Part shown: one piece after another, positions 22,266 to 38,048 of the stretch | Layout of the letters: each line of letters starts with the position of its first letter | Position numbering within the stretch: the first letter of the stretch is position 1 | Assembly: GCA_020725335.1 (NCBI GenBank) | Contig: DYFF01000007.1 | Span: 62,001 to 126,000, forward strand | Source of the DNA: Thermodesulfovibrio sp. | Lineage (GTDB): Bacteria; Nitrospirota; Thermodesulfovibrionia; Thermodesulfovibrionales; Thermodesulfovibrionaceae | Direction: 5' to 3' | Length of the DNA stretch: 64,000 nucleotides | Position numbers and translations under genes: made by a program | Notes under the pieces: generated by a model | The model's input: the letters and a program-made list of their open reading frames with translations, nothing else | Told to the model about the DNA's origin: nothing | Databases searched by the model: none

Positions 22266-22314
22266 TTGTCCCAAATGGGACAACACAATTAATTGTATGT
22301 CCATAAAGGGACAT
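22266..22314 (+). promoter_or_regulatory. Array of three abutting palindromes (putative enhancer for a sigma-54 activator)
   Basis: TTGTCCCAAATGGGACAA (22266-22283, arms of 8), ACAATTAATTGT (22285-22296, perfect) and ATGTCCATAAAGGGACAT (22297-22314, arms of 6). The two GTCC/GGAC dyads are related in sequence and their centres are 31 bp apart, about three helical turns. They lie about 110 to 78 bp upstream of the start predicted from the -24/-12 box at 22358, the usual distance for NtrC-type activators. Confidence 0.65.
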
Positions 22315-22357
22315 CTAAATTTAGCTATTTCCCCTTGTTTTTCAATAGGTTAACATC

Positions 22358-22373
22358 TGGCAAATCTTTTGCT
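22358..22373 (+). promoter_or_regulatory. Sigma-54 (-24/-12) promoter
   Basis: TGGCAAATCTTTTGCT has GG (22359-22360) and GC (22371-22372) separated by exactly 10 bases with TTTGCT at -12, as in the RpoN consensus. Predicted transcription start is about 22384, 24 bases before ATG 22408. No sigma-70 promoter of similar quality was seen in the same gap. Confidence 0.68.
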
Positions 22374-22407
22374 TTCCTAATTTTAAGATTTGTTCCGGAG
22401 GATATAG

Positions 22408-22827
22408 ATGGAAAAATTTTCATCATGCGTTTACGGTTTAGAATGGTCAATAAAAACTTTGAATGAACCTATTAAGATTGCTAAAAATCTCCATTCTCAA
22501 GTAACAGTTTTCTCTTTTGTCCCAAAGTATTGTTTTTTAGAAAACTGGCTCAATAGTGCTATAGGAGAGGAGATTTTTAGAGCTAAATTTAAGGAAAGTC
22601 TCAGTGAGACTCAGCAAATTTTTGATGAAAAGGGGGTGAGAGAAGAGACATTAATTTTTGCATGTATTTCAGTGGATGTAATTGTAGAGAATGCAAAAAT
22701 CAATGGAGTTGATTTACTTCTTATTGTCTCAAAAAGCAGAGATGTAAAAGAAAAAACACTCTTTAGGAGTGTAACTCAAAAGGTTGCAGCTAATTTAGGC
22801 TGCTTAGTTTTAACATCAAATAATTAA
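22408..22827 (+). CDS. Universal-stress-protein-like protein
   Basis: 139 residues. The alternating beta/alpha layout (SSCVYGLEWSIKTLNEPIKIAKNL, VTVFSFVPK, GVDLLLIVSKSR, SVTQKVAANLGCLVLT) resembles a single UspA domain. The usual ATP-binding GXXG motif is not obvious, so it may be a nucleotide-free Usp variant. Usp proteins are cytoplasmic, induced under stress, and often regulate neighbours. As first gene after the sigma-54 promoter it could be a regulator of the transport or redox genes that follow; this is positional inference. GGAG lies 9 bases before ATG 22408. Confidence 0.65.
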   Translation: MEKFSSCVYGLEWSIKTLNEPIKIAKNLHSQVTVFSFVPKYCFLENWLNSAIGEEIFRAKFKESLSETQQIFDEKGVREETLIFACISVDVIVENAKINGVDLLLIVSKSRDVKEKTLFRSVTQKVAANLGCLVLTSNN

Positions 22828-22840
22828 AGGAGGAGAAGTT

Positions 22841-23680
22841 ATGAAGAAGTTATTATTGTTAGTTTTAGCTGTATTTTGTATTTCAATCATGCCTCTCACA
22901 GCATTGTCAGCGGAATTAAAATTAGGATTACTTCCAAGGCTTACTGAAAAAGAAATGATCGAAGGATTTACACCTTTTGCCCAGTATCTCGAAAAAGAAT
23001 TAGGTGTTAAGGTAAAACTTATAGTGCCAAAAGATTTTGACACATGGACAAATGAAGCAAAGGCAGGCGCTTATGACATTGCTTACACTAATCCATATCT
23101 TTATGTAGTAGTTAAAAAGGCAGTAAAAGACGCTCAGCCTATTGCAATTGCATCAGAACCAGAAATCGGAACTAAACTCTATGGAACTATAATCGTGAAG
23201 AAAGATAGCCCAATAAAGTCAATAGCAGACCTCAAAGGAAAAACCATAGCAGCCACAGACCCAGGTTCAGCAGGAGCATACCTTGTTCAGATGTTAATGC
23301 TTCAGAAGGCAAAGCTTAAAAAAGAAGATGTAAAGATTATATTTGAAAAAAAGCGTGACCCAGTAGCAGAGGCTGTGCTTTCAGGAAAGGCTGATGCAGG
23401 ATTTATAAGAGATGATGATGTTGAAAAATTAAAAGTAGGTGGAGACAAGTTTAGAAGACTTGGAAAAAGCGAACCAATTCCAAACTGGGTTGTATTTATA
23501 GGGAAAAAAATGGATCCAGCTATGGCAACAAAGGTAAAGAATGCAGTTCTTAAATTAAAACCAGGAGACCTTCAGTCAGTTAAAGTGCTTGCACCAGCCA
23601 GAACTGACGGTTTTGTTCCTGCCACTGATAAAGATTTCAAAATTATGATTGATGCTGCTAAGGCAGCAGGTGCATATTAA
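22841..23680 (+). CDS. PhnD-like periplasmic solute-binding protein
   Basis: 279 residues with a signal peptide (about 1-24, ending ALSA). The fold matches PhnD-type binding proteins: LKLGLLPRLTEKEMIEGFTP at the start, AYDIAYTNPYLYVV, IKSIADLKGKTIAATDPGSAGAYL, and LSGKADAGFIRDDDVE. Family members bind phosphonate, phosphite, phosphate or other anions. No ABC permease or ATPase is encoded nearby; the next genes encode TauE/SafE-type permease halves instead. The protein may thus be a sensor or a scavenger for a sulfur-containing anion, which is inference. AGGAGG lies before ATG 22841. A second PhnD-like protein with two such domains (45064) sits beside a histidine kinase. Confidence 0.85.
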   Translation: MKKLLLLVLAVFCISIMPLTALSAELKLGLLPRLTEKEMIEGFTPFAQYLEKELGVKVKLIVPKDFDTWTNEAKAGAYDIAYTNPYLYVVVKKAVKDAQPIAIASEPEIGTKLYGTIIVKKDSPIKSIADLKGKTIAATDPGSAGAYLVQMLMLQKAKLKKEDVKIIFEKKRDPVAEAVLSGKADAGFIRDDDVEKLKVGGDKFRRLGKSEPIPNWVVFIGKKMDPAMATKVKNAVLKLKPGDLQSVKVLAPARTDGFVPATDKDFKIMIDAAKAAGAY

Positions 23681-23737: not shown

Positions 23738-24982
23738 ATGAATAAGAAATTTTTGGTTATTCTATTTGCGAGCATACTATATTTATTGACAATAACCCCA
23801 AGTATTACAATGGGACAACCTTCACAACCACAAGAGGCACAAAGTGACTCTGCTGGAAAATCTGAGGTTGCCATCCAGATTGACAAGAAAACATTAAATA
23901 ATGGCGGTAAAGTTATTGTTTCAGGTAAAGCTCCAGAAGGAAAGCCTGTCTACATAGAGGTTTGGACAGAAGAAAAGGTAAGAGCAGCAAGGCTTGATGC
24001 AGAAGTTGACAAAGAGACCGGCAAAAGACCCTATATCTTTTACATGACTGATGAGATGCCAGCCTTCTATAATCTTCTATTCCCCAAAGAATTCGCTGAT
24101 ACCTTAGAGGCAGAAAAGAAACTTGGAAGAAAATGGAGCGTTTCAGCTCTTCTGAGAAACACCGGTGCAACTGCGGTTTTTGAAGCACCTGCTCAGGCAA
24201 AGATTGATAGATATCAGACCACACTCTGGGCAAGCATTATCGGTTCAAGAGGAGAACTTCTTCCACCTATGGACAAGTCTGAAAACAAGCGAAGGGCAAT
24301 GCAGCTTGTGAAGGCAAAATTCAGAGATCTACCGGTGGTTTTTAAGGCAAATGTGGAGATAAATCCTGATGGAACCTTTAAAGCTCCCATTGAACTTCCC
24401 AGCAATGCGCCTCCAGGCAAATATTATGTGGTGGCAAAAGTTGATAAAGACACTAAAAGTGAGACAGTTTTTTTTGAAAACAATATAACCTTCCCGAGTG
24501 TCTATTTGGATAATGCAGGAAGAACAGTTAATTTATTCGTTCCTTTCTTGCTTACTGCAGCAGTAACGACTTTTGGCGTTTTGATGGGTGCAGGTGGTGG
24601 ATTTATTCTCAATCCATTACTTGTTATGCTTGGACTGCCTCATACAGTTGTAGCAGGAACAGTTATGCCAACTGTTCTTTTCTCTCAGGGTACAGGAATA
24701 TACAACTATTCAAGAATTAAGTTTATAAGCTGGAAATTAGGTATAACACTTGGTCTTGCTATGCTTGCAGGAGGTTTTATTGGTCCCAAACTCACCGAGC
24801 TTATTACTCTTGACCAATATAAATTTCTATTTGGATGGGTTCTAATAATACTTTCTGCACTGATGTTCTGGCAGACAACTCCAAAATACCTTGAAAGGAA
24901 CAAGAAAGAACAAGCAATTCTTAAAGAGTATCAGAGAAGAGCTCAGGAAGCAGCAAAGAAAAAGGAAGAAGGAGGTAAATAA
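23738..24982 (+). CDS. TauE/SafE-type permease half with large N-terminal exported domain
   Basis: 414 residues. A signal peptide (about 1-26) and a periplasmic region of about 230 residues with Ig-like beta features (IQIDKKTLNNGGKVIVSGKA, VFKANVEINPDGTFKAPIEL) precede about four membrane helices from residue 262. Those carry the half-repeat FGVLMGAGGGFILNPLLVMLG and GGFIGPKLTELI of the TauE/SafE (DUF81) family. The C-terminal tail is charged and cytoplasmic. The complementary half is encoded 2 bases downstream. TauE/SafE proteins export or import sulfite, sulfoacetate, taurine-related or other sulfur anions. The exported domain may bind the substrate or the PhnD-like protein; this is inference. 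Confidence 0.82.
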   Translation: MNKKFLVILFASILYLLTITPSITMGQPSQPQEAQSDSAGKSEVAIQIDKKTLNNGGKVIVSGKAPEGKPVYIEVWTEEKVRAARLDAEVDKETGKRPYIFYMTDEMPAFYNLLFPKEFADTLEAEKKLGRKWSVSALLRNTGATAVFEAPAQAKIDRYQTTLWASIIGSRGELLPPMDKSENKRRAMQLVKAKFRDLPVVFKANVEINPDGTFKAPIELPSNAPPGKYYVVAKVDKDTKSETVFFENNITFPSVYLDNAGRTVNLFVPFLLTAAVTTFGVLMGAGGGFILNPLLVMLGLPHTVVAGTVMPTVLFSQGTGIYNYSRIKFISWKLGITLGLAMLAGGFIGPKLTELITLDQYKFLFGWVLIILSALMFWQTTPKYLERNKKEQAILKEYQRRAQEAAKKKEEGGK

Positions 24983-24984
24983 AA

Positions 24985-25374
24985 ATGAAAGTAGAATTCT
25001 GGGGACAGGAATTTAAAGTTAATCTATTCATAGGAATACCAGGTGCCTTTCTCATAGCAATTGCATCTTCAATGTTTGGCTTTGGTGGAGGACCATTCAT
25101 GGTGCCACTCATGGCAGTGGGATTGAGACTTCCCATGTATGTTATTGTGGGAAGTTCTCTCCTTGCAATCTTCTTTAATACTCTTATGGGTTCCTTCAGA
25201 CACTATGGGTTTGGAAATTTTGACCTAATATTTTTCTTAATAATGTTTCCAGCTGCAATTCTTGGTGGATATATAGGACCTAAGATTGCTAAAAGACTGA
25301 ATCCTGTTATTGTAAAAAGAGTTGCCTGCGTTGGACTTCTGATACTGGCTTTTCAATTGCTTGGTGTATTCTAA
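24985..25374 (+). CDS. TauE/SafE-type permease, second half
   Basis: 129 residues with about four membrane helices and the second TauE/SafE half-repeat (ASSMFGFGGGPFMVPLMAVG, GGYIGPKIAKRLNPVIVKR). It is preceded by AGGAGG and begins 2 bases after the stop of the first half. Together the two products give the roughly eight helices of a normal full-length TauE/SafE protein, so they probably form a heteromeric permease. The reading frames differ and both genes have proper starts, so this looks like a true gene split rather than a sequencing error. Residues 1-15 are a soluble leader without signal-peptide character. Confidence 0.82.
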   Translation: MKVEFWGQEFKVNLFIGIPGAFLIAIASSMFGFGGGPFMVPLMAVGLRLPMYVIVGSSLLAIFFNTLMGSFRHYGFGNFDLIFFLIMFPAAILGGYIGPKIAKRLNPVIVKRVACVGLLILAFQLLGVF

Positions 25375-25386
25375 AAGGAGTTGAAT

Positions 25387-27474
25387 ATGAAAACCTCCAT
25401 ATTCAGCAACTGTGGAATGTGTTCAGTGAGATGCCCGATCAGGGTAGAAGTTTTAGATGGCAGAGTTACATGGATTGAGGGTAATCCATATGTACCTGGC
25501 ATGGAGGGTAGCCTCTGTGCCAGGGGGTCTGCCGGCACAGCACTTCTTTATGACTTTGAAAGGCTTCAGTATCCCATGATCAGAACTGGACCGAGGGGCT
25601 CAGGTCAGTTCAGGCGTGCAAGCTGGCAGGAGGCATTTACATATGTGGCTGAGGCTGTTAAGAACATACAGGCTAAATATGGCAACAGAACAGTAGCATT
25701 ACTTGACAGAGGAGCTGGCCTTTTTGGTGAGATTCAAAGACTTATAGTACGGGGAATGGGCTCACCCAATTACTTCAGTCACGATGATTTCTGCAGAAAA
25801 AATGTTGACCTTGCCTATCAGACCTTGCTTGGATATGGAAGACCTGAGGTTGGCTATGACTTTGCCAACACTAAACACATGGTATTTTATGGAAGAAATG
25901 CTGTGGAGGCTCTGGGAGTAAGAGAGGTCAATAATATTGTAAAGGGTCTTGAAAATGGAGCTGAACTTACATATATTGATGTGAGAGCATCAAAGACAGC
26001 AACAAAGGCAACGAGATATTTTCAGATAAGACCGGGCACTGATTATGCCTTAAATCTTGCATTGATTCATGTAATTTTAAGAGAAAATCTTTTTGACAGA
26101 GATTTTGTTGATAGATTTATAATTGGAATGACAGAGCTTGAAAACTTTGTAAAGGACTGCACACCTCAATGGGCTGAGAAGGAGACAGGTATTCCTGCCT
26201 ATGAAATAGTAAATCTTGCAAGAGCTCTCAGTGCAGCTAAACCGAGGGTGATTCTATATCCGGGCTGGTTTTCTGCAAGATATATGGATGCTTTTTATTT
26301 TGCCCGCTCAGTTATAATTCTCAATGCATTGCTTGGAAGTATTGAGCAGAAGGGTGGTTTGATACTTGCAAAGACACCAAAGGAAGTAGGAGCAAAAGGA
26401 TTAAATAGTCTACTTGAGAGAATTCCTGCACCTCAGGAAAAAAGGATTGAGGCTGAGGAAGGTAAAGGTTTTCTCTACGATGGTGCCGGACACATTCTCC
26501 ATCTATTTAGAGCAATAAAAAAAGGCGAGCCTTATCCAATAAAGGCTCTCTTTATAGTTCGCTATGATCCTTTTGCAGGAATTACCTTAAAAGATATTAA
26601 GGAAATACTTGATGGTCTTGACTTATTAGTGGCAATAGATACTAACTATTCAGCTACTGCTTGGTATGCAGATGTAATATTGCCTGAATCTACATATCTT
26701 GAAAGAGATGATGTTATAGGGCTTCAGAGGGGGGCTAAGCCTGCTTTAATAATGAGAAGACAGGCAATTAAGCCAATTTATGATACAAAAGGTAAGTGGG
26801 AGATTACTAAGGGACTTCTTCATGCCTATGGTGCTGGAGAGTACATGCAGTTTGATACTGTACAGGATCTTTGGAATTATCAACTTGACGGAACTGGAAT
26901 TAAGATTGAGGATTTCGATAAATCTGGACAGGTTGCTCTTTGCAAGGATGCAAAAATGTATTCAAGAGAGGAGTTAAAATTCAAGACTCCTTCAGGTAAA
27001 GTAGAGATACTATCAAATAAAATGGCTGAAAGAGAAGTACCGTTTTTCTATGACCATCAAACTCCAGCAAAACCTAAAGTTGAGGAAGGCGAGTTCAGAC
27101 TTGTCTTTGGAAGAATGGCAGTTCATACTCACATTCAGACTCATAATAATAAATATCTTAATGAAATTGTTCCTGAAAACGAACTTTGGATTAATTCTGA
27201 AGTAGCAGCAAATCTTGGCATAAAACATGGTGATTTGGTAGAGGTCTCATCAGGTGATTTCTCTGGTAAGATTAGAGCAAAGGTAACCCCATATATTCAT
27301 CCAGAGTCTGTGTTTATGTATAGAGGATTTGAAAATGAAGTACCTTGGAAAACTCGCTCTTATGGCAAAGGACTCAACGAAGGGAGGCTTCTTAAGGATG
27401 CTTTTGAGAGAATGGCACACGGCAGTCACACAGGTGCAATTTTTGAGAATTTTGTAAAAGTGAAAAAGGCTTAA
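25387..27474 (+). CDS. Cytoplasmic molybdopterin oxidoreductase, PhsA/PsrA-like
   Basis: 695 residues from ATG 25387 (AGGAG 6 bases upstream; the TTG at 25381 was rejected). There is no Tat signal, so unlike the 8763 enzyme it should stay in the cytoplasm. [4Fe-4S] ligands are Cys9, Cys12, Cys16 and Cys44 (CGMCSVRC, LCARG); the likely molybdenum ligand is Cys136 (HDDFCRKN). The rest follows the DMSO-reductase-superfamily plan, closest by eye to PhsA/PsrA-like members (GSPNYFSHDDFC, GRMAVHTHIQTHNN). The next gene encodes its four-cluster partner, which overlaps nuoB. No NrfD-type anchor is present here. Substrate unknown: a sulfur oxyanion, formate or an organic reductant are possible. Confidence 0.87.
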   Translation: MKTSIFSNCGMCSVRCPIRVEVLDGRVTWIEGNPYVPGMEGSLCARGSAGTALLYDFERLQYPMIRTGPRGSGQFRRASWQEAFTYVAEAVKNIQAKYGNRTVALLDRGAGLFGEIQRLIVRGMGSPNYFSHDDFCRKNVDLAYQTLLGYGRPEVGYDFANTKHMVFYGRNAVEALGVREVNNIVKGLENGAELTYIDVRASKTATKATRYFQIRPGTDYALNLALIHVILRENLFDRDFVDRFIIGMTELENFVKDCTPQWAEKETGIPAYEIVNLARALSAAKPRVILYPGWFSARYMDAFYFARSVIILNALLGSIEQKGGLILAKTPKEVGAKGLNSLLERIPAPQEKRIEAEEGKGFLYDGAGHILHLFRAIKKGEPYPIKALFIVRYDPFAGITLKDIKEILDGLDLLVAIDTNYSATAWYADVILPESTYLERDDVIGLQRGAKPALIMRRQAIKPIYDTKGKWEITKGLLHAYGAGEYMQFDTVQDLWNYQLDGTGIKIEDFDKSGQVALCKDAKMYSREELKFKTPSGKVEILSNKMAEREVPFFYDHQTPAKPKVEEGEFRLVFGRMAVHTHIQTHNNKYLNEIVPENELWINSEVAANLGIKHGDLVEVSSGDFSGKIRAKVTPYIHPESVFMYRGFENEVPWKTRSYGKGLNEGRLLKDAFERMAHGSHTGAIFENFVKVKKA

Positions 27475-27486
27475 GGGAGGAATAAA

Positions 27487-27993
27487 ATGAGCATCTACTA
27501 TATATATCAAGATCACGACCGTTGCATAGGATGTTATGCATGTGAGGTACACTGTAAAACAAAAAACGAGCTTCCAGTAGGTCCAAGACTCTGTAGAATA
27601 ATTGAAACAGATATAAAGCTCATTGGAGGACTCCCGAGACAGAGATTTGTCTTTATGCCCTGTTTTCACTGTGAAGAACCATGGTGTGTAAAAGCTTGTC
27701 CTACAGGAGCTATGCAGAAACGCTCAAAAGATGGAATAGTTTCTGTTGAACAGTCTCTCTGTGTAGGATGCAAATCTTGTATTACTGCTTGTCCGTGGGG
27801 AGTTCCTCAGTGGAATCCAGAAACTGGTAAAGTAGCAAAGTGTGATTACTGTAAGGACAGAATTGATCAAGGACTTAAACCTGCTTGTGTAACTAAGTGT
27901 ACAACAAAGGCATTGAAGTTTGTCTCAGCAGATGAAGCTTCAAGACTCAAGAGAGAAAGGTTTGTAAAGGATACATATGCTTCCTTATACTGA
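27487..27993 (+). CDS. Four-cluster ferredoxin-like Fe-S subunit
   Basis: 168 residues, four [4Fe-4S] cysteine groups: [35 protein letters not shown] and CDYC...CVTKC. It is a typical electron-transfer subunit of a DMSO-reductase-superfamily enzyme and follows the cytoplasmic Mo-enzyme by 12 bases with GGGAGG before ATG 27487. The 3' end overlaps nuoB by 17 bases. The overlap makes cotranslation with complex I likely and is the main reason to propose that it hands electrons to or from NuoB/NuoI. No membrane helix is present. Confidence 0.92.
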
Positions 27994-28501
27994 TAAAGAT
28001 CAACTCATTGAAGTAGAGGAAGGAACAAAGATAATCAAGGGTAGTAACGTCATAATTACTACCCTTGATAAAGTAGTAAACTGGGGAAGGTCAAACTCTC
28101 TTTGGCCTCTTACATTTGGTCTTGCCTGCTGTGCTATTGAGATGATGGCAGCAGGTGCTTCTCATTTAGATCTTGACCGTTTTGGTGTACTTTTTAGAGC
28201 CTCACCTCGTCAGGCAGATGTAATAATTATAGCAGGCACTGTTACATACAAGATGGCTCCGATTGTAAAAAGAGTTTATGACCAGATGCCTGAGCCAAAA
28301 TATGTTATAGCCATGGGAAGTTGTGCTTGCACAGGTGGAATTTTTAATACCTATAGCACAGTGCAGGGGGCAGATCAGTTTTTGCCAGTAGATGTCTATG
28401 TGCCTGGTTGTCCACCAAGACCCGAGGCATTAATGTATGGACTGCTTAAATTGAAAGAAAAAATCATGAAGGAACAGGGAAGATGGGGCAGCTGGAAATA
28501 G
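27977..28501 (+). CDS. nuoB: Complex I subunit NuoB
   Basis: 174 residues. The N2 cluster ligands are visible in the paired cysteines LACCAIEMM and in GSCACTGG and GCPPRPEAL. NuoB holds the terminal [4Fe-4S] cluster that reduces quinone with NuoD. It is the first gene of the complex I cluster and starts inside the preceding Fe-S gene. Gene order here is B-D-I-A-C-H-J-K-L-like-small-L-like-M-N, unlike the usual A-to-N order. Start ATG 27977 follows AAAGGA. The 3' end overlaps nuoD by 19 bases. Confidence 0.97.
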
Positions 28502-29688
28502 AGAAGATAGATGACACAACATTTGTTCTTCAGATGGGACCTCATCATCCTGCAACTCACGGCGTGTTAAAACTTTTATGTGAGTTTGAGGGCGAAAGGG
28601 TAATAAAGATAAAACCAGATGTAGGTTATTTACATCGAGGAGTAGAAAAACTCTCTGAGAGTAAAACTTATCCAGGTGCTATGACTCTTACAGACAGGCT
28701 TGACTACATCTCAAGTATGACTAACAACATTGGTTATTGCCTTGCTGTTGAAAGACTCATGGGAATTGAACCACCAAGAAGAGCTAAATTCATAAGAACA
28801 ATGGTTGCCGAAATGACCAGATTAAGCAGTCATCTACTTTGGCTTGCCACACATGCTCTTGATATAGGTGCGATGACAGTCTTTCTCTATGCATTTAGAG
28901 AAAGAGAACAAATCTTACAGTTTTTTGAAAAAATATGTGGTGCCAGACTTACAGTTAGCTATCCAAGAATTGGAGGAGTAAGGGTTGATGTAAAAAAGCA
29001 TGTTCTTGATGAAATATATACATTCATTGAGTTAATGATTAAAAGAGTTGATGAATATGAAACACTTCTCACAGAAAACCGTATATGGATTGCAAGAACC
29101 CGCGGGGTTGGAGTTATCTCACCACAGGATGCAGTCTTATTAGGACTTACAGGTCCTGTTTTGAGAGGCTCTGGAGTTTACTATGACATTAGAAAACACA
29201 TGCCCTATGATGCATACAGCGAAGTTGATTTTGAAGTACCTCTTGGAGAAAATGGGGATACTTATGATAGGTATTTATGCAGAATAAGGGAGATGAGACA
29301 GTCTGCACTTATTGTAAAGCAATGTATTGAAAAGATGCCTGAAGGAGATATTATATCAGATAAATCACCTGATATTGATTTACCCTATCAGTCAAAAAGA
29401 AAGATTGAACCCGGAGACTCTCTTTGGAGTGGTTTTATCGCCTTTTCAGAGGAAAAACAGGAAATAATGCCAAAAGGAGAAATATATTCAGCCATTGAAG
29501 CTCCAAAAGGTGAGCTTGGCTTTTATATAGTAAGCGATGGCTCAGGGAAACCTTACAGAATGAGAGTAAGAGCACCGTCATTCATTCATATCTCAGCAAT
29601 ACCGAAGCTTTGTGAAGGACATCTTCTTGCCGATGTTATAGCAATAATAGGAACACTTGATATTGTAATGGGAGAGGCAGACAGATGA
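28483..29688 (+). CDS. nuoD: Complex I subunit NuoD (49-kDa type)
   Basis: 401 residues. Conserved [20 protein letters not shown] and [10 protein letters not shown] near the N-terminus form the quinone site with NuoB; IGGVRVDV and the C-terminal [11 protein letters not shown] and DIVMGEADR are typical. It is related to the large subunit of NiFe hydrogenases but lacks the paired CxxC motifs for the NiFe site, so it is a true NuoD and not a hydrogenase. It is separate from NuoC, unlike the NuoCD fusion of some bacteria. It overlaps nuoB by 19 bases and nuoI by 4. Confidence 0.97.
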
Positions 29689-30254
29689 GTAAATTACTGA
29701 GAAAACTACTTTTCATAGATTTACTAAAAGGAATGCTTATCACTTTTAAGACTATATTTACTCAGCCTGTTACAATTAGATATCCCAAGCAGAAAAGACC
29801 TCTTGAGGAAGGATTTAGAGGTAGACATGCCTTTGTACGTAATCCTGAAACAGGAAGAGAACGTTGTGTTGCCTGCACAAAATGTGCTCAAGTATGTCCT
29901 TCTCAATGCATATACATTGATTATTCCGTTAATACCGAGAGCGGTGCGAGAGTGCTTACAAAATATGAGGTAGATGCTTTTAGATGTATTTTTTGTGGAT
30001 ACTGCGAAGAGGTATGTCCTGTTAATGCAATTGTCCTTACAGAGTTTTACGAATATGCTTCTTACAATAGAGAGAGTAATTACTTCAATAAAGAAAGGTT
30101 GCTTAAAAACTGGGATGAATTCATGGAGCATTATAAAAGAACAGATTATCTTAACAAATTCTGGTATTTACCTGGAATTAAAAGAGATAGACTTCCAGTC
30201 GGTAAGAGACAACCGAGAGTTGTCTATAAAAATATAAACAGCGAGGGAAGATAG
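29685..30254 (+). CDS. nuoI: Complex I subunit NuoI
   Basis: 189 residues with two [4Fe-4S] ferredoxin motifs: [15 protein letters not shown] and [15 protein letters not shown]. NuoI passes electrons to NuoB. Its placement between nuoD and nuoA instead of after nuoH is unusual. In complexes without NuoEFG this subunit is the natural entry point for an alternative donor such as ferredoxin or another Fe-S protein. It overlaps nuoD by 4 bases. The C-terminal 60 residues are basic and helical. Confidence 0.95.
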
Positions 30255-30256
30255 AT

Positions 30257-30637
30257 ATGGAACCAGGTTCCTATATTCCTTACAAGTATCTTCCAGTTTT
30301 AATAGCAATAGCATTTGCTACGGTTTTTGGTATTGGTGGTTTATTAATAAACAAGTTAGTAGCACCAAGAAAGTTTAATCCAGTTAAATTTATTGCCTAT
30401 GAGTGTGGCAATCCACCAAGCGGAGATACAAAGGATAGATTTTTTATAGGATTTTTTCTCCTTGCCATACTTTTTGTGGTCTTTGACGTGGAAGTCATCT
30501 TTCTCTATCCCTGGGCAGTTTCCTTTAACGCCATATCACTTGAGGGATTCTGGATGATGATTGTATTTATAGCTCTGATTTTTATTGGATACATTTATGA
30601 GATATTCATGGGAGCACTCACATGGCACAGGAAATAG
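30257..30637 (+). CDS. nuoA: Complex I subunit NuoA
   Basis: 126 residues, three membrane helices. The loop after helix 1 carries KFIAYECGNPPSGD with the conserved cysteine of this subunit, and helix 2 carries FVVFDVEVIFLYPWAV, the acidic stretch characteristic of NuoA. It helps form the quinone-entry and proton-path region with NuoH and NuoJ. It lies 2 bases after nuoI and overlaps nuoC by 16. It is not at the front of the cluster as in the standard operon. Confidence 0.95.
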   Translation: MEPGSYIPYKYLPVLIAIAFATVFGIGGLLINKLVAPRKFNPVKFIAYECGNPPSGDTKDRFFIGFFLLAILFVVFDVEVIFLYPWAVSFNAISLEGFWMMIVFIALIFIGYIYEIFMGALTWHRK

Positions 30638-31359
30638 AGAGATTTTTAGATAACGAACAATTTTCAATTTTTCAACAAAATAACATTCTTGACTCTCATG
30701 CTGATAGAGAGAAACAGACCAATGAATCCTTTAAGATAGCTTTGAAATTAAGAGATTTATTCCCTGAAGAAGTCATTGAAATAAATCGATTTGGTGGTCA
30801 GGTTTCAGCAACAGTTAGAAAAGAAAAAATTAAAGAGATTTTACAATACCTTAAAGAACATGAGGGATTCAATCATCTACAAGACCTTTGTGGAGTAGAT
30901 TACTATCCTGAGAAACCAAGATTTGAGGTTGTATACAATCTTTACAGCATATGGAGAAGGTTACATATAAGGATAAAGGCTAAAATATCTGAAGAAGAAT
31001 CTGAGATTGACTCGGTAACTGAGCTCTGGTCTGGAGCAAATTGGCATGAAAGAGAATGCTTTGATATGTTTGGAATAAGATTTCTCGGTCATCCAGACCT
31101 TAGAAGAATACTTATGCCTGAGGACTGGAATGGACATCCATTAAAAAAGGATTATCCCTTAAGGGGTAAGGAACTGTGGAGAGGATTTAGAGAGATTATT
31201 GATCTATTATTTCATAATCCTGAGAGACAAAATTCCGAAGAAGCTACTTTTTCAAAAAATCAGAGAGATTCCTCAGTCCATCGAGCCCTTAGGAATGACG
31301 AGGAGGTAAATCAAAAAGACGATGAATTTGCTCGGAATGACAAGGGAGAAGAGATATGA
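30622..31359 (+). CDS. nuoC: Complex I subunit NuoC with unusual C-terminal tail
   Basis: 245 residues. The conserved 30-kDa-subunit core runs from about 40 to 185 (LQDLCGVDYYP, YNLYSIWRRLHIRIKA, GANWHERECFDMFGIRFLGHPDLRR, HPLKKDYPLRGKE). NuoC normally ends soon after KDYPL; here about 60 residues follow. The last 30 (214-243) are polar, without predicted structure, and are encoded by a repeat-like DNA stretch. An N-terminal extension of about 35 polar residues is also present, with no better start seen. NuoC links the peripheral arm's NuoD to its electron-input end, so a changed tail is notable in a complex lacking NuoEFG. It overlaps nuoA by 16 and nuoH by 4. Confidence 0.93.
   Translation: MAQEIERFLDNEQFSIFQQNNILDSHADREKQTNESFKIALKLRDLFPEEVIEINRFGGQVSATVRKEKIKEILQYLKEHEGFNHLQDLCGVDYYPEKPRFEVVYNLYSIWRRLHIRIKAKISEEESEIDSVTELWSGANWHERECFDMFGIRFLGHPDLRRILMPEDWNGHPLKKDYPLRGKELWRGFREIIDLLFHNPERQNSEEATFSKNQRDSSVHRALRNDEEVNQKDDEFARNDKGEEI
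31261..31345 (+). repeat. Repeat-like insertion in the 3' end of nuoC
   Basis: The segment has the look of small dispersed palindromic repeats: GATTCCTC near its start is opposed by an AGGAATGACGAGG at 31291-31303, and a second, related GGAATGACAAGG follows at 31334-31345. It stays in the nuoC frame. No second copy was found elsewhere in this window, so the repeat nature rests on its internal structure. Confidence 0.4.
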
Positions 31360-32351
31360 TAGAGTTTCTAATAATGCTAATTAAAACAACAGTAGTCTTC
31401 GGAATAGTTCTTACCCATGTTGCCTATACAACTTATGCAGAGAGAAAGATAATTGGTAGAGCACAGGCAAGAATGGGACCTATGGAAGTTGGTCCTCACG
31501 GACTGCTTCAGCCAATTGCAGATTTTATAAAGATATTTTTCAAAGAAGACATTATACCAGTTAAGGCAGAAAAGCTTCTTTTTCAGATAGCGCCTTTGAT
31601 AGTTTTGGTTTTTACCATGATAAATCTTACTGTGATTCCCTTTGATAAAAATTTTATTCTTGCTGACATTAATGTTGGACTTCTCTTTATTTTGGCTTCT
31701 GCCTCCATCTCAGTCTATGGAATCATACTTGCTGGCTGGGCATCAAACAGTAAATATTCTTTCTTGGGTGGTCTTCGTTCTGCCAGTCAGGTGCTAAGTT
31801 ATGAAATTGCCCTTGGACTCAGTCTTGCAGGAGTTGTTCTAATGGCTGGCTCCCTTAATTTGAGAGATATAGTAATTGCTCAGCATAATACTGCATTGGG
31901 AGTTTATGCAATACCTCAAATAATTGGTTTTGTTGTATTTGTAATTTCTGCCTTTGCAGAGACAAATCGTGCACCCTTTGACCTGCCTGAGGCTGAGACA
32001 GAGCTTGTTGCTGGCTATCTCACTGAATATAGTGCTTTTAGATACGCTCTCTTTTTCCTTGCAGAGTATGTTGCCATGTATATTATGGCATTTCTATGTG
32101 CTTTATGTTTTCTTGGTGGCTGGACAATTCCTAAGTTTGTTACTGATATTTTACCTTTCTTAGAAAAAGTTCCAGGAATAATCTGGTTTGCCATAAAGGT
32201 TTATGCATTCATATTTCTTTACATATGGGTTAGGGCAACGCTTCCGAGATATAGATTTGATCAATTACTAAATATTGGCTGGAAAGTGCTTATTCCTGCA
32301 GGAATTTTGAATATTATAATAATCGCTATATTCAAGAGGTTTACATCATGA
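31356..32351 (+). CDS. nuoH: Complex I subunit NuoH
   Basis: 331 residues, eight membrane helices. Typical signatures are ERKIIGRAQARMGPMEVGPHGLLQPIADFIKIFFKE split over residues 28-64, ILAGWASNSKYSFLGGLRSASQVLSYEIALG, and AFAETNRAPFDLPEAETELVAGY (shown here only as landmarks in shorter blocks: ERKIIGRAQARMGP, LLQPIADFIK, ETNRAPFDLPEAETELV). NuoH forms the quinone chamber and the first proton-path segment between the peripheral and membrane arms. It overlaps nuoC and nuoJ by 4 bases each. A full-length, intact copy. Confidence 0.97.
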   Translation: MIEFLIMLIKTTVVFGIVLTHVAYTTYAERKIIGRAQARMGPMEVGPHGLLQPIADFIKIFFKEDIIPVKAEKLLFQIAPLIVLVFTMINLTVIPFDKNFILADINVGLLFILASASISVYGIILAGWASNSKYSFLGGLRSASQVLSYEIALGLSLAGVVLMAGSLNLRDIVIAQHNTALGVYAIPQIIGFVVFVISAFAETNRAPFDLPEAETELVAGYLTEYSAFRYALFFLAEYVAMYIMAFLCALCFLGGWTIPKFVTDILPFLEKVPGIIWFAIKVYAFIFLYIWVRATLPRYRFDQLLNIGWKVLIPAGILNIIIIAIFKRFTS

Positions 32352-32863
32352 TATATCTTATATTTGCATATTTTTGTCTTTCTACTCTTGGAATTTCTAT
32401 AATGGCTCTTACAAGAAAAAATCCTGTGCATGCAGTACTTTGGTTATTGCTGCTTTTTCTTCATGTAGCAGTTATATATCTTTTTCTTAATGCTGAATTT
32501 TTAGCCATGGTTCAGGTTATCGTCTATGCAGGTGCTATATTGGTAATGTTTCTTTTTACTCTCTTTTTACTTGGCGCAAGAGAACTTCCAAAAAAGAAAA
32601 GATATACTTCAATGATTGAGGGTAGATTACTTATTGGACTTTCTATAACTGCTACGATATTAGCTGTTTTTTCATCCATTAAAGCTAAATACACTGGGAA
32701 ATACACAATAAAATACATTCAAGAGGTAGGCAATACAAAAGCAATTGGTGTAATGCTTTTTAATGAATACTCTCTGGCTGTACTTATTCTTGGAGTAATT
32801 TTACTTATCCCGATGATTGCAGTTTCAGTATTAGCATGGAGGAGAAGAGATGATACCTCTTGA
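32348..32863 (+). CDS. nuoJ: Complex I subunit NuoJ
   Basis: 171 residues, five membrane helices. The stretch NPVHAVLWLLLLFLHVAV followed by LAMVQVIVYAGAILVMFLF is the NuoJ signature, including the helix with a pi-bulge involved in gating. The short soluble loop (about 80-90) and last helix LAVLILGVILLIPMIA are ordinary. It overlaps nuoH by 4 and nuoK by 14 bases. No fusion with NuoI or truncation is seen. Confidence 0.95.
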   Translation: MIYLIFAYFCLSTLGISIMALTRKNPVHAVLWLLLLFLHVAVIYLFLNAEFLAMVQVIVYAGAILVMFLFTLFLLGARELPKKKRYTSMIEGRLLIGLSITATILAVFSSIKAKYTGKYTIKYIQEVGNTKAIGVMLFNEYSLAVLILGVILLIPMIAVSVLAWRRRDDTS

Positions 32864-33155
32864 AGCTTATCTTATACTTGCTGGATTAATCTTCAGCATA
32901 GGATTAGTAAATCTTTTTATAAATAGAAATTTAATAATTGTTTTTATATCGCTTGAAGTGATGCTTGCAGGAGTTAATCTCGCATTGGTTGCACTCTCTC
33001 ACTACATGAATGACATTAGAGGTCAGGTTTTAGCAATTTTTACAATAGCTGTTGCTGCGGGTTCAGTTGCAGTTGGTCTGTCTCTTTTGATAGCTCACTT
33101 TAATTTGAAAAAAAGTGTAGACACAGAAGAATTATGCGAACTTAAAGAGGAGTAA
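32850..33155 (+). CDS. nuoK: Complex I subunit NuoK
   Basis: 101 residues, three membrane helices, with the two buried glutamates expected for NuoK in FISLEVMLAGVNLALVA and the preceding/following helices (AIFTIAVAAGSVAVGLSLL). It is homologous to MrpC. It is part of the conserved E-channel/proton-path chain linking NuoH and NuoJ to the antiporter-like subunits. It overlaps nuoJ by 14 bases and is 3 bases before the first antiporter-like gene. Confidence 0.95.
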   Translation: MIPLEAYLILAGLIFSIGLVNLFINRNLIIVFISLEVMLAGVNLALVALSHYMNDIRGQVLAIFTIAVAAGSVAVGLSLLIAHFNLKKSVDTEELCELKEE

Positions 33156-33158
33156 AGG

Positions 33159-34625
33159 ATGATTGAGTTACTACCACTTTTAGCTATATTAGTATCTGCT
33201 ACAGGAGCAATATTAATCGTTCTGATTGGAGATAGGAATCCGAATCTGAGAGAGGCTGTGTCTGTAATAGCTGGAATTTTAAAGTTTTCCTTCGTATGCA
33301 TGCTTATTCCACCATTTTTAAAAGGTGAAAGTATAAGTTTAAAAATTGCTACAATTTTACCAGGAATAGAGCTTTCATTTAAGGTAGATGGATTGGGTTT
33401 ACTTTTTGCCTTTGGTGCTTCATTCCTGTGGATTTTAACAACCTTTTACTCAATTGGTTACATGCGAGGGCTTAGAGAACATGCTCAAACAAGATATTTT
33501 GCCTGTTTTGCTCTTTCACTCAGTTCTGCAATAGGTATTGCCTTTGCAGCAAATCTCTTTACAATGTTTATTTTTTATGAAGCATTAACTGTTGTTACTT
33601 ATCCTCTTGTTGCTCATCATGAAGATAAAGAAGGTCTTGAAGGTGGAAGACAGTATATAGTATATCTGTTAGGAACCGCAAAAATTTTACTCTTTGCTGC
33701 CATAGTGATTACCTATATTCTTACTGGAACGCTTGATTTCAAGAAGGGTGGAATTTTCACGGCTGAGGTTGTTGAAAACAATAAATTTATTCTGCAGATA
33801 ATGCTTATACTTTTTATATATGGATTTAACAAGTCTGCTGTTATGCCTTTCCATAGTTGGCTACCTGCTGCAATGGTAGCACCTACTCCTGTGAGTGCAT
33901 TGCTTCACGCTGTTGCAGTTGTTAAAGCTGGTGTGTTCACTGTGTCAAGGGTTTTGCTTAATGTCTACGGAGAAAACACAATAAGGGCAATCGGAATGCA
34001 GGATTTAATATTTTTCCTTACAGGATTTACCATAATAGTGGGTTCACTTATTGCTCTTACAAGAGATGATTTCAAAGCAAGGCTTGCATTTTCAACGGTA
34101 GCAAATCTTTCATACATAATTATTGGTGTTGCTATGTTTTCACCCTTAGGAATAATGGGAGGCCTTATTCATATAAGTATGCATGCATTTTCTAAGATTA
34201 CTATGTTCTTTGTAGCAGGTTCTGTTTATGTATCAACTCATGTAAAAAGAATAAGCCAATTTGACGGAGTAGGTAAGGTTATGCCCATTACTATGTTTTC
34301 CTTTTTTCTTGCTACTTTGAGCATGATAGGCATACCTCTTTTTGCAGGCTTTATAAGCAAGTATAATCTTGCCTTAGGAGCCCTTCAAATTGGAAGACCT
34401 GAGCTTTTGGGCGTTTTTATTGCAAGCTCTTTTCTTAATGCTGCATATTTTCTTCCTATTCCTTACAGAGCATTTTTTAGAAAGCCTGCTGAAGCTGAAA
34501 GATGGAGTGGTGTTAAAGAAAATTACTTCTGTGCAATTCCTCTTTTGATAACCTCTCTGTTTACTATTGTTTTGGGATTATATCCTGATTTTCTAATGGA
34601 ACTTATAAGGAGAGTGACAGGATGA
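33159..34625 (+). CDS. MrpD/NuoL-like antiporter-type subunit (first copy)
   Basis: 488 residues with about 14 membrane helices. Antiporter-fold hallmarks: acidic helix TMFIFYEALTVVTYPLVA, NKSAVMPFHSWLPAAMVAPTP and VVKAG lysine helix, and the broken helix near LARLAFS-like TRDDFKARLAFSTVANLSY. By eye it is closer to MrpD-type proteins than to NuoL, and it lacks the long lateral C-terminal helix of NuoL. It is the first of four antiporter-like subunits in this cluster, where canonical complex I has three. It probably pumps one proton (or Na+) equivalent. It overlaps the following 71-residue gene by 4 bases. Confidence 0.88.
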   Translation: MIELLPLLAILVSATGAILIVLIGDRNPNLREAVSVIAGILKFSFVCMLIPPFLKGESISLKIATILPGIELSFKVDGLGLLFAFGASFLWILTTFYSIGYMRGLREHAQTRYFACFALSLSSAIGIAFAANLFTMFIFYEALTVVTYPLVAHHEDKEGLEGGRQYIVYLLGTAKILLFAAIVITYILTGTLDFKKGGIFTAEVVENNKFILQIMLILFIYGFNKSAVMPFHSWLPAAMVAPTPVSALLHAVAVVKAGVFTVSRVLLNVYGENTIRAIGMQDLIFFLTGFTIIVGSLIALTRDDFKARLAFSTVANLSYIIIGVAMFSPLGIMGGLIHISMHAFSKITMFFVAGSVYVSTHVKRISQFDGVGKVMPITMFSFFLATLSMIGIPLFAGFISKYNLALGALQIGRPELLGVFIASSFLNAAYFLPIPYRAFFRKPAEAERWSGVKENYFCAIPLLITSLFTIVLGLYPDFLMELIRRVTG

Positions 34626-34837
34626 GCTTTAAAAAAATCCTTTATATCACATGCTTAATAGTAGTAATTCTTGAAATAGTCTTTTTGAAATTGATGCACC
34701 TCGGACATGGCTATTTTGAGTTTGAAGAATTGCCAGCTTTCGGTGCTTTAGTAGGTTTTTGGGGAACGCTCTTTATTATTATTGTTGCTAAGTCCTTAAG
34801 TAAGGTAGTAACAAAGAGGGAGGACTACTATGACTGA
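34622..34837 (+). CDS. Small two-helix membrane protein inside the nuo cluster
   Basis: 71 residues with two hydrophobic segments (about 5-22 and 39-58) joined by a loop LMHLGHGYFEFEELPAFGA, then a short charged tail. It overlaps both neighbours (4 and 8 bases), so it is almost certainly translated with them. I do not recognise a standard Nuo subunit. Its position between two MrpD/NuoL-like genes suggests an accessory subunit that bridges the extra antiporter module, perhaps comparable to small Mrp-type subunits. That is inference from position. Confidence 0.72.
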   Translation: MSFKKILYITCLIVVILEIVFLKLMHLGHGYFEFEELPAFGALVGFWGTLFIIIVAKSLSKVVTKREDYYD

Positions 34838-36599
34838 TTTTATTCATCCAGGAATTGTCCTGATATTGGGAGCTTTTTTGTTGCCAGCATTACCTAAGAA
34901 TTTCAGAGGTCCATACAGTGTTCTATTAGCTACAGTTGGCTTTTTCTTTACTTTAGTAGCTGAGCAAGGGACTTATGGTTATATGAGTTTGTTTGGGGTG
35001 GAGATATCTCCTCTGGTCAGGGTAGACAAACTTAGTCTAATTTTTGCCTATATATTTAGTTTTATTGGTTTAATTGGAATAATATATTGCTATCACATAG
35101 ATGACTGGATTCAACAGTTGGCTGGCCTTCTTTATACAGGGGCATCAGTAGGTGTCAGCTTTGCTGCTGATATTTTAAGCTTTTATCTTTTCTGGGAAAT
35201 GCTTTCTTTCTGTGCTGTTTTGCTTATCTGGTCTCAGAGAACAAAAGAGGCCACTGAGGCAGGCTATAGATATATTCTTGTTCATATAGTTGGCGGACTT
35301 TCACTTTTTGCAGGAGTGATGATTTACATATATCAAACAGGAAATCTCCAGTTTGACTCCTTTATGAATTACTCTGGTGAGCTTTTCTGGTGGCTTACTT
35401 TGATAGGCTTTGTCCTTTGTGCTGCTGTGCCACCACTACATGCATGGCTACCTGACGCCTATCCATCTGCGACAATTTATGGAAGCGTTTTTCTTAATCC
35501 GTTCACAACTAAGGCAGCAGTTTATGCACTCATAAGAGGATTTCCCGGTGCAGAGGTTTTAATTTATCTCGGTTCAGTTATGGCAGTTTACGGAGTCATA
35601 TATGCTCTCCTTGAGAACAATCTAAGAAGACTGCTTTCCTATCACATTGTAAGTCAGGTTGGATACATGGTTGCTGGAGTCGGACTTGGAGTAATTACTC
35701 TTGGGCTAAATGGCTCTGCTTCTCATGCATTCAATCATATACTTTATAAATGTCTTCTCTTTATGTCTGCAGGAGCAGTAATCTATGCAACAGGAAAGGA
35801 AAAGATGACAGAACTTGGTGATTTTGGAAGATATGCACCGATTACTGCTTTAAGCTTTTTTGTAGGTGCTTTCTCAATTGCAGGATTCCCTCTTACAAAT
35901 GGTTTCATTGGAAAATCACCAATTATTTCGGCAGCAGGTGAACTAAAAAATGCGTTTGCATACATTATGCTTAATGTAGCAACCTGCGGAACAATCATAA
36001 GCATAATATGCAAAATGGGATACTATACTTTCTTTTCAAGTAGGAAATCAGACTATCAGGTCAGACAAACTCCCTTAAATATGAGAATTGCTATGCTTAT
36101 AACCTCATCACTATGCATATTAATTGGAATTTTCCCACAGTTTTTTTACTATTTCTTGCCATATCCGATGAATTATGAACCCTATACAGCACAGCATATT
36201 CTTGATACCCTGGGAATATTCAGTTTTACAGGGCTTGTTTTCGCTATCTTCCTAAAAATACTAAAACCAAAACCATACCTCAATCTTGATATAGATTGGT
36301 TTTATAGGGTAGGAGCAAAATATTCAATTAAATCCCTAAACAAAACTGTTGCTCCTGCAGAGTATGAATTTATAAACAAAATCTGGAGATGGCTAATAGA
36401 CGGAGTTATAATTCCAGTGTCAGGTAGAATTACAGCTTATGAAGACAGAAAAATGAATACATTACCAGCTTTCTTGTCAAGCTTAGCAAAAACAATAAGT
36501 GACGGATTAGCGTGTTTTCATACTGGGAAAGTTCAGGATTATGCTTTTTATATGCTAAGTTTTATAGGACTTGTGCTGCTACTATATCTTTTATTTTAG
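34830..36599 (+). CDS. NuoL/MrpD-like antiporter-type subunit (second copy, with C-terminal arm)
   Basis: 589 residues. The antiporter core shows the acidic helix FYLFWEMLSFCAVLLIWS, VPPLHAWLPDAYPSATIYGS, the lysine helix NPFTTKAAVYALIRG, and LLSYHIVSQVGYMVAGVG. The extra 110 C-terminal residues (LDIDWFYRVGAKYSIKSL, HTGKVQDYAFYMLSF) form an amphipathic stretch and a last helix, the feature of NuoL that runs along the membrane arm. It is therefore the better candidate for the distal, NuoL-position subunit, although DWFYR is also common in Mrp-type proteins. It starts 8 bases inside the small gene upstream. Confidence 0.88.
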   Translation: MTDFIHPGIVLILGAFLLPALPKNFRGPYSVLLATVGFFFTLVAEQGTYGYMSLFGVEISPLVRVDKLSLIFAYIFSFIGLIGIIYCYHIDDWIQQLAGLLYTGASVGVSFAADILSFYLFWEMLSFCAVLLIWSQRTKEATEAGYRYILVHIVGGLSLFAGVMIYIYQTGNLQFDSFMNYSGELFWWLTLIGFVLCAAVPPLHAWLPDAYPSATIYGSVFLNPFTTKAAVYALIRGFPGAEVLIYLGSVMAVYGVIYALLENNLRRLLSYHIVSQVGYMVAGVGLGVITLGLNGSASHAFNHILYKCLLFMSAGAVIYATGKEKMTELGDFGRYAPITALSFFVGAFSIAGFPLTNGFIGKSPIISAAGELKNAFAYIMLNVATCGTIISIICKMGYYTFFSSRKSDYQVRQTPLNMRIAMLITSSLCILIGIFPQFFYYFLPYPMNYEPYTAQHILDTLGIFSFTGLVFAIFLKILKPKPYLNLDIDWFYRVGAKYSIKSLNKTVAPAEYEFINKIWRWLIDGVIIPVSGRITAYEDRKMNTLPAFLSSLAKTISDGLACFHTGKVQDYAFYMLSFIGLVLLLYLLF

Positions 36600-36608
36600 G
36601 AGATAAAG

Positions 36609-38048
36609 ATGATGGGAATTGAATTAATACTGTTATTTCCATTGCTTGGGATATTTTTGATCTGGATAACAAAAAATAGTAAAGTTGTTAGCTTGATTGC
36701 TTTACTTTCTTCGTTATTGTCTTTCCTAATAGCTCTAAGTTATTATCTTAATTTTGATAGAACAAAGCAAGATTTTCAGTTTTTAAGTTCTTATGAATGG
36801 ATATCTGCATGGAAACTTAATTTTACCTTAGGTTTCGACCACATAAATGCCCCTTTTGTTTTACTTACAACATTTATAACCGTAGTAGTTATATTGTTAG
36901 CAATTAAGACTGTAAGGGATAAGATTGCATCCTTTATGGCTTTTTTACTTTTACTTTCTTTATCGGTTAATGCTTTTTTCATGTCAACCAATTTCTTGCA
37001 ATTCTTTTTCTTCTATGAAGCCATGCTAATACCCTCAGTATTACTTATTCAGCGATGGGGTGGAGATAATTCTTCACAGGCAGCAATGAAATTTTTAATT
37101 TATACTTTTGGTTTTAGCATTTTTCTATTTATTGCTATTATAGCTGTTTATTACTATGGAGGCGGATTTTCCTTTAGCTATCTTGAAAGTTTAAAAATGA
37201 ACAAACCTACAAAATTGTTGCTTCTTTTTGGTTTTATTCTTGCCTTTTTTGTAAAGATTCCTGTGGTACCTTTTCACGGATGGTTAAAAGATGCTTATTA
37301 TGAGTCACCTATGCCAGTTACCATATTTCTCTCTGCTGTACTTGGTAAAATGGGAATTTACGGGATTCTGAGAGTGATTACTTATTTTAATGATGTTTTA
37401 TCATCAGTAAATTTTTGGATAATGCTGCTTTGCCTTATTTCCTTTATCTACTCTGCTTTTCTTGCTCTAAAAGCTAAAGACATTAAAGTTATCTTTGCAT
37501 ATATGAGTCTCAGTCATGTGGGAATCATTACAGCAGGAGCATTTACTGGGAATCTACATGGATATCAAGGAGTGCTTCTTCAGAGTATAAATCATGGAAT
37601 CCTTGCAGCAGGACTATTTTATATCGCTGAACTTTTAAATAGAGATACAAAAAGCTTTGATTCTGAAAAATTTGGAGCTTTATCAAAAAGAACTCCAGCC
37701 CTGACCTTTTTTACCTTTTCATTAATTATGGCAATGGGTGGTTTTCCCGGACTAAATTATTTCAATGGAGAGTTACTACTTCTCAGTGGAATATTTAAAG
37801 AAAATGCTGTGCTTGGTTTTTTAGGTGTATTTGGTGTTGCCCTTGGAGTGGTTTATCTTGCTTGGGTTTTCTACAGGGTTTTTCTAAGAAAGCCTGCTTG
37901 TGAACTATCTCAGTTTGTCAAAGATATAGTCTCTTGGGAGGCTTTAATCTTGTGCCTGTTTTTCTTGCTTTCAATTTATCTTGGACTTAATCCTGACTTT
38001 ATACTCTCTGGAGTGAGGGAGATTGTGAGCTTAGGAGGTAAAGGATGA
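36609..38048 (+). CDS. nuoM: Complex I subunit NuoM
   Basis: 479 residues, about 14 helices. NuoM signatures are FFFYEAMLIPSVLLIQRWGG (acidic helix 5), VKIPVVPFHGWLKDAYYESPMPVT, VLGKMGIYGILR and FAYMSLSHVGIITAGAF. It is one of the three canonical proton-pumping antiporter-like subunits. An AGGAG lies 5 bases before ATG 36609. The overlap with nuoN is 4 bases. With the two MrpD/NuoL-like proteins upstream, the membrane arm would hold four antiporter-like units instead of three. Confidence 0.94.
   Translation: MMGIELILLFPLLGIFLIWITKNSKVVSLIALLSSLLSFLIALSYYLNFDRTKQDFQFLSSYEWISAWKLNFTLGFDHINAPFVLLTTFITVVVILLAIKTVRDKIASFMAFLLLLSLSVNAFFMSTNFLQFFFFYEAMLIPSVLLIQRWGGDNSSQAAMKFLIYTFGFSIFLFIAIIAVYYYGGGFSFSYLESLKMNKPTKLLLLFGFILAFFVKIPVVPFHGWLKDAYYESPMPVTIFLSAVLGKMGIYGILRVITYFNDVLSSVNFWIMLLCLISFIYSAFLALKAKDIKVIFAYMSLSHVGIITAGAFTGNLHGYQGVLLQSINHGILAAGLFYIAELLNRDTKSFDSEKFGALSKRTPALTFFTFSLIMAMGGFPGLNYFNGELLLLSGIFKENAVLGFLGVFGVALGVVYLAWVFYRVFLRKPACELSQFVKDIVSWEALILCLFFLLSIYLGLNPDFILSGVREIVSLGGKG

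Follow-up and report, generated by a model that had tools for sequence, protein, structure and literature searches.

A conserved paired-dyad enhancer at a sigma-54 promoter in Thermodesulfovibrio, its probable activator and a possible link to sulfur metabolism

In the window, the whole stretch of 64,000 nucleotides of Thermodesulfovibrio sp. DNA analysed here, the segment 22266-22407 raises the question of which protein acts through the palindromes ahead of an apparent sigma-54 promoter and which genes are controlled by it. The segment had been read in an initial annotation as a sigma-54 promoter with an NtrC-type upstream enhancer made of three palindromes. All letters and coordinates of that reading were correct when the sequence was re-read, including the exact GG-N10-GC spacing of the -24/-12 element and the position of two dyads some 78-110 bp upstream of the predicted start (Table 1). 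The dyad centres, 22274.5 and 22305.5, are 31 bp apart and lie at about -78 and -110 relative to this start. A genome-wide pattern search found the exact pattern TGTCCN6GGACA twice in the 1,804,241-base assembly, and as both copies lie at this one locus (22266-22314), the dyads are not a chance occurrence. The pattern TGGCAN6TTGCW has one exact match within the 64 kb window, at 22358. A genome without rpoN had been named as one finding that would speak against a sigma-54 promoter; rpoN is encoded at C6:44297-44767 (E 6e-59). The locus therefore combines a GG-N10-GC element and conserved upstream activator sites with a genome that encodes both rpoN and a sigma-54 AAA+ activator. Judged by sequence and conservation, 22266-22373 is an enhancer plus a sigma-54 promoter and a real, conserved switch.

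Table 1. Coordinates of the promoter region, the proposed target operon and the regulator cassette in the window.
Feature	Position	Strand	Remarks
Enhancer dyad 1, TTGTCCCAAATGGGACAA	22266-22283	.	conserved 16-bp core 22267-22282; genus alignment and cross-phylum
Central palindrome, ACAATTAATTGT	22285-22296	.	present, not conserved; judged outside the enhancer
Enhancer dyad 2, ATGTCCATAAAGGGACAT	22297-22314	.	core 22298-22313; genus alignment
TTTCAATAGGTTA element	22340-22352	+	conserved; ends 5 bp before -24
-24/-12 sigma-54 promoter, TGGCAAATCTTTTGCT	22358-22373	+	GG-N10-GC, near-consensus; predicted start near 22384
Usp-like protein	22408-22827	+	first gene of the proposed target operon
PhnD-like periplasmic substrate-binding protein	22841-23680	+	not in the operon of several genus members
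TauEa	23738-24982	+	extra N-terminal region and first half of TauE/SafE permease
TauEb	24985-25374	+	second half of TauE/SafE permease
Molybdopterin oxidoreductase	25381-27474	+	PhsA/PsrA-like
DmsB-type 4Fe-4S electron-transfer subunit (ferredoxin)	27487-27993	+	
Complex I (nuo) genes	27977-39400	+	co-directional with the operon, mostly closely spaced
Proposed activator	42158-43498	-	receiver, sigma-54 AAA+ and Fis-type HTH
Sensor histidine kinase	43500-45101	-	weak sCache match
Tandem PhnD-like sensor protein	45064-46710	-	putative lipoprotein (LLTLAC motif)

Conservation within the genus separates the functional elements from the incidental ones. An orthologue of the Usp-like gene is present in 13 of the 16 genus members, counting the genome of the window, and the regions upstream of these orthologues have in common a -24/-12 element and two dyads, the second of which is frequently degenerate. 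G012 is an exception in appearance only, with its dyads and promoter about 400 bp further upstream, while G002, which we take to be T. yellowstonii, carries the same promoter. The invariant blocks of the genus alignment are dyad 1 (TGT.CCA..TGG.ACA), dyad 2, a TTTCAA-type element and TGGCA...TTG. This bears out the sigma-54 promoter and both outer dyads of the initial reading. The third palindrome exists between them, but its columns are not conserved while the flanking dyads and the -24/-12 element are; it therefore looks incidental and was rejected as part of the enhancer.

Built from 59 distinct sites, a weight matrix yields the motif TGTnCC-N4-GGnACA, and the palindromy does not extend consistently past 16 bp. 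Most of the scored sites had also served to train the matrix; its scores are accordingly a description of the motif, and independent proof comes instead from gene-blind searches for dyad pairs. The two dyads are spaced by 30, 31, 32 and 33 bp in 6, 23, 14 and 2 cases, respectively, and the distance from dyad 2 to the GG of the -24 element clusters near 52, 61-62, 71-73, 81-86, 93-96 and 106-108 bp and beyond. This distance is periodic at 10-11 bp, above random placement (0 of 20,000 nulls for the collapsed set; p 2e-4 with distinct values only), the fit being best near 11 bp with the promoter picked as the best downstream match. On this evidence, the conserved enhancer is a pair of TGTnCC-N4-GGnACA sites, 30-33 bp apart and at roughly helical-turn multiples from -24.

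The same geometry bears on whether the dyads might act in RNA, as terminators or hairpins of the upstream DedA gene. Dyad 1 begins right after the DedA stop codon, has a folding energy of -10.2 kcal/mol and has arms that are 3-6 bp longer in several genus members, all of which would suit a hairpin. This reading was rejected as extremely unlikely because the dyads have no T-tract, and because the upstream gene varies between genomes and the flanking genes are even divergent in G323. Terminator prediction also made no call at the dyads, the conserved palindrome is generally 16 bp long, and the spacing of the pair, both internally and to the promoter, is constrained.

Further features of the locus and its surroundings are less easily assigned. 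Immediately upstream of -24 lies a conserved TTTCAATA-N2-TTA element, which had been overlooked in the initial annotation. It resembles an IHF site, with 8 of 9 positions of WATCAANNNNTTR, and the genome has three genes of the IHF/HU-type family. The single-sequence p values are weak (~0.07-0.2), and nifH of the same genome is likewise preceded by such an element, so it counts as no more than an IHF-like candidate. At both promoters TTCAA-N4-TTA stands about 5 bp ahead of -24 and may be common to the sigma-54 promoters of this genus. The palindrome TGTTCCACGTGGAACA occurs in perfect form outside the window, at C5:27288-27303, with a one-base variant about 1.1 kb off (C5:28379-28394), and is doubled in G070; these are probably another regulator's site or a repeat.

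The candidate that had been put forward as the regulator, the protein encoded at 42158, is strongly supported by the co-conservation of the dyads with its orthologues. Its gene is the last of an operon that also encodes a tandem-PhnD lipoprotein, the C-terminal half of which matches PtxB, ArrX, HtxB and AioX, and a sensor kinase. A PhnD-fold sensor, a kinase and a sigma-54 response regulator are thus encoded together, which is the layout of AioXSR-type systems. Neither this sensor operon nor the target operon with its sulfur link, nor the wide co-conservation of site and regulator, had been recognised in the initial annotation. On its 3' side the regulator gene is convergent with a Fur-like gene (41715-42191), the two 3' ends overlapping by 34 bp, and katG adjoins the Fur-like gene.

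A pair-only search that ignored genes found the dyad pair in 11 of 295 genomes of the phylum, and none with a reversed control pattern. The sensor gene is present in nine of these 11 genomes, compared to 30 carriers among all 295 (p 2e-8 without phylogenetic correction), and a tenth (G053) has a fragment of the regulator. In six outgroup genomes, G025 among them, the cassette lies upstream of TauE-molybdoenzyme genes with the dyads in between, and in G217 a dyad pair and a -24/-12 element follow the regulator near a contig end. Sensor and TauEa occur together in 30 of 176 genomes, the carriers of each being 40 and 35. A pair-only scan of a collection of 84,980 species returned 66 stretches, in which dyad pairs stand beside regulator orthologues in Desulfobulbaceae (two stretches), Desulfohalobiaceae and Persephonella, and beside a YTD-type cluster in a deltaproteobacterium.

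The dyad-linked regulators form a single clade in the tree (support 98/82), with the nine paralogues used from the genome of the window, the G041 protein and an acidobacterial sequence falling outside. Within this clade the recognition helix LGI(S/T)RKQLRTKM is near-invariant, with a few members varying. One of these is G025, in which RRQ replaces RKQ and the dyads read TGTACC/GGTACA (L094 5188-5234), with A or T and not C at position 4. This is suggestive of covariation of protein and site, in a single case. Correspondingly, three genomes that keep TauEa (G305, G307 and G361) have no regulator orthologue, their best matches being at the paralogue level (43-45% identity), and neither dyads nor a good -24/-12 element were found at their TauEa; G305 and G361 are 81-83% complete, which makes the absence less certain there. 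The association is not perfect: G224 has the regulator orthologue and no dyads were found within 600 bp of TauEa, and a normal dyad pair was not found in G302 and G296. Separately, G240 is assigned to a different family of the order and has proteins about 76-83% identical to those of the window, like genus members, a possible instance of transfer or misplacement.

Other proteins could in principle bind the dyads, as the genome encodes about 11 strong enhancer-binding proteins. The most plausible of them is NifA: NifA-like and NifH proteins are encoded in the genome, and both dyad cores fit the NifA consensus, TGT-N10-ACA. However, this consensus was not found in the 701 bp upstream of nifH, the one nif promoter considered, and NifA was rejected as the binder on these grounds. 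Unlike the NifA consensus, the dyads moreover require an inner CC and GG, and they track the orthologue of the 42158 protein across phyla and are missing in the three genomes without it. Binding by NifA or another of these activators is thus very unlikely, and the regulator at 42158 very probably acts through these dyads, as far as can be told from sequence comparison.

Alternatively, the dyads might serve as operators for a repressor or some other regulator independent of sigma-54, with the -24/-12 match being coincidental or used independently. Palindromes of this size are common operators, and similar TGTCCC pairs occur without the regulator in unrelated genomes such as those of Rhodobacterales and Tannerella. 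Many of the 66 stretches have another core, such as TGTCCCCGCGGGGACA, and no regulator orthologue was found near them; the TGTCCCCGCGGGGACA pairs of Rhodobacterales and an ACGTGG pair of G070 were set aside as unrelated for this reason. In nearly every regulator-linked case, by contrast, a -24/-12 element with a score of 12 or more out of 14 follows downstream at the periodic distances, and the linked regulator has a sigma-54 activation domain. This makes an operator for a repressor exceedingly improbable, and activation by the 42158 regulator remains the preferred reading.

As for the genes that it would control, the promoter likely heads an operon comprising Usp, the PhnD-like protein, a split TauE permease, a PhsA/PsrA-like molybdoenzyme, a ferredoxin and a complex I without NuoEFG. 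The two adjacent TauE genes match the first and the second half of the Pfam profile, and several relatives have one stop codon within the TauEa match. The best solved match of the molybdoenzyme is the Thermus thiosulfate/polysulfide reductase 2vpw, and its best NCBIfam match is PhsA, below the cut-off of that family. The enzyme looks cytoplasmic, as no Tat signal was seen by eye. No NuoE, NuoF or NuoG was recognised among the open reading frames of 27977-39400, where nuo gene names other than B, D, I and M were assigned by eye. The molybdoenzyme and ferredoxin may replace the NADH module of the NuoEFG-less complex (25381-39400). Near the end of the Usp gene, a terminator-like hairpin with a T-rich tail (22786-22803) lies inside the proposed operon and could be an attenuator or a chance feature.

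The link to sulfur rests on the PhsA/PsrA-like enzyme and on YTD-type genes that stand behind the same dyads elsewhere. In seven relatives, dyads and a -24/-12 element are found at YedE, DsrE-like, TusA or Usp-type genes, some of these YTD-associated sites having a single good dyad only. The window promoter is itself not part of a YTD cluster, since its adjacent genes are TauE, PhsA-like and nuo genes and YTD-type genes follow the dyads only in relatives. YTD genes have been proposed as a marker of disproportionation, while the newest survey does not regard them as a marker on their own (PMC12998232). Thiosulfate disproportionation by Desulfolithobacter dissulfuricans GF1 was accompanied by a higher abundance of all five YTD proteins and a slightly higher one of PhsA-1, and two Nuo subunits whose locus tags are adjacent were detected only under this condition (PMC9751629). 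PhsA-1, PhsB-1 and these two Nuo subunits have consecutive locus tags (PMC9751629), the orthology with the genes of the window being deduced from names and locus-tag order. The dyad-linked YedE-, TusA- and DsrE-like genes of the relatives resemble the YTD and PhsAB-Nuo genes of disproportionating bacteria, for which the literature searched makes no mention of a regulator. It is a tentative idea, possible and somewhat short of probable, that dyad and activator form a dedicated cross-phylum switch for the disproportionation or use of sulfur intermediates (YTD, PhsAB-TauE-Nuo) that responds to periplasmic sulfur oxyanions via the tandem-PhnD sensor.

These observations suggest a mechanism in which a periplasmic oxyanion would be bound by the tandem-PhnD lipoprotein and the signal passed by phosphorelay to the sensor kinase and on to the regulator. 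The regulator would then bind the two 16-bp dyads, probably as paired dimers, which three helical turns would place on nearly the same face of the DNA. A DNA loop or bend, perhaps aided by an IHF/HU-type protein at the element ahead of -24, would bring the bound regulator into contact with sigma-54 RNA polymerase at -24/-12, where its AAA+ domain would open the promoter. The output would be an operon through which sulfur intermediates are taken up and reduced or disproportionated, with coupling to complex I. The cassette is most likely an AioXSR-like three-component system that senses a sulfur oxyanion or another oxyanion. Arsenite, arsenate and phosphite are further ligands of PhnD-like sensors, and the sulfur-sensing part of the explanation is only slightly favoured. 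The ligand itself, thiosulfate, sulfite or a related sulfur species, is a guess and the least certain part of the model. The sensing input may also vary and the same regulator may serve different sensors, since in some relatives such as G323 the kinase near the regulator looks different and no tandem-PhnD gene scores above the cut-off. In G323 and G053 (L170, L184) the kinase N-terminus is of a membrane type (...YHIGEE...) and a tandem-PhnD gene was not found adjacent.

A DNA site and probable targets can now be proposed for an uncharacterised activator and sensor. Across Nitrospirota, Desulfobacterota and Aquificota, the pairing of site and activator is linked to genes that have been put forward as markers of sulfur disproportionation. 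Given a predicted site that is both short and specific, and the same promoter in G002, inducer identity and regulon membership can be tested directly in culture. The site, the regulator and the regulon linked to sulfur merit experiments.

Compared to known systems, the locus resembles the enhancers of the NtrC/NifA type (TGT-N10-ACA and relatives) in having paired palindromes about 80-110 bp upstream of -24/-12, possibly with a bending site in between, but differs in site specificity, in the linked regulator and in a nifH gene without such a site. GlrR (QseF) sites read TGTC-N10-GACA, and GlrR thus shares the TGTC...GACA half-sites and the NtrC-family regulator class with the system in the window; here, however, the half-sites are separated by N8 and the protein reaches 394 bits where the GlrR cut-off is 763. 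The motif string does not appear in the main text of surveys of Desulfovibrio sigma-54 and response regulators, and a literature search for the half-sites returned nothing relevant by title. As in the initial annotation, no published activator could be matched to the dyad. The closest parallel is AioX-AioS-AioR and ArxXSR of arsenite metabolism, which likewise combine a periplasmic PhnD-fold sensor, a histidine kinase and an AtoC-type sigma-54 activator with a palindromic site ahead of the RpoN promoter of a molybdoenzyme operon (PMC5908839, PMC5335332). The AioXSR regulator acts at an RpoN promoter (PMC5908839) and AioR binds GTT-N10-AAC, for example GTTCGGATTTCCGAAC (PMC5335332), whereas the window has paired TGTnCC-N4-GGnACA sites. 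The sensor in the window furthermore has two PhnD-like domains, and the targets are a PhsA-like enzyme, TauE and nuo genes (YTD in relatives) and not an arsenite oxidase. Because of the different site, the two-domain sensor and the other targets, the system is not classified as AioXSR. Its mechanism belongs to a known kind, and the novelty lies in the site, the regulator and the sulfur-linked regulon now assigned.
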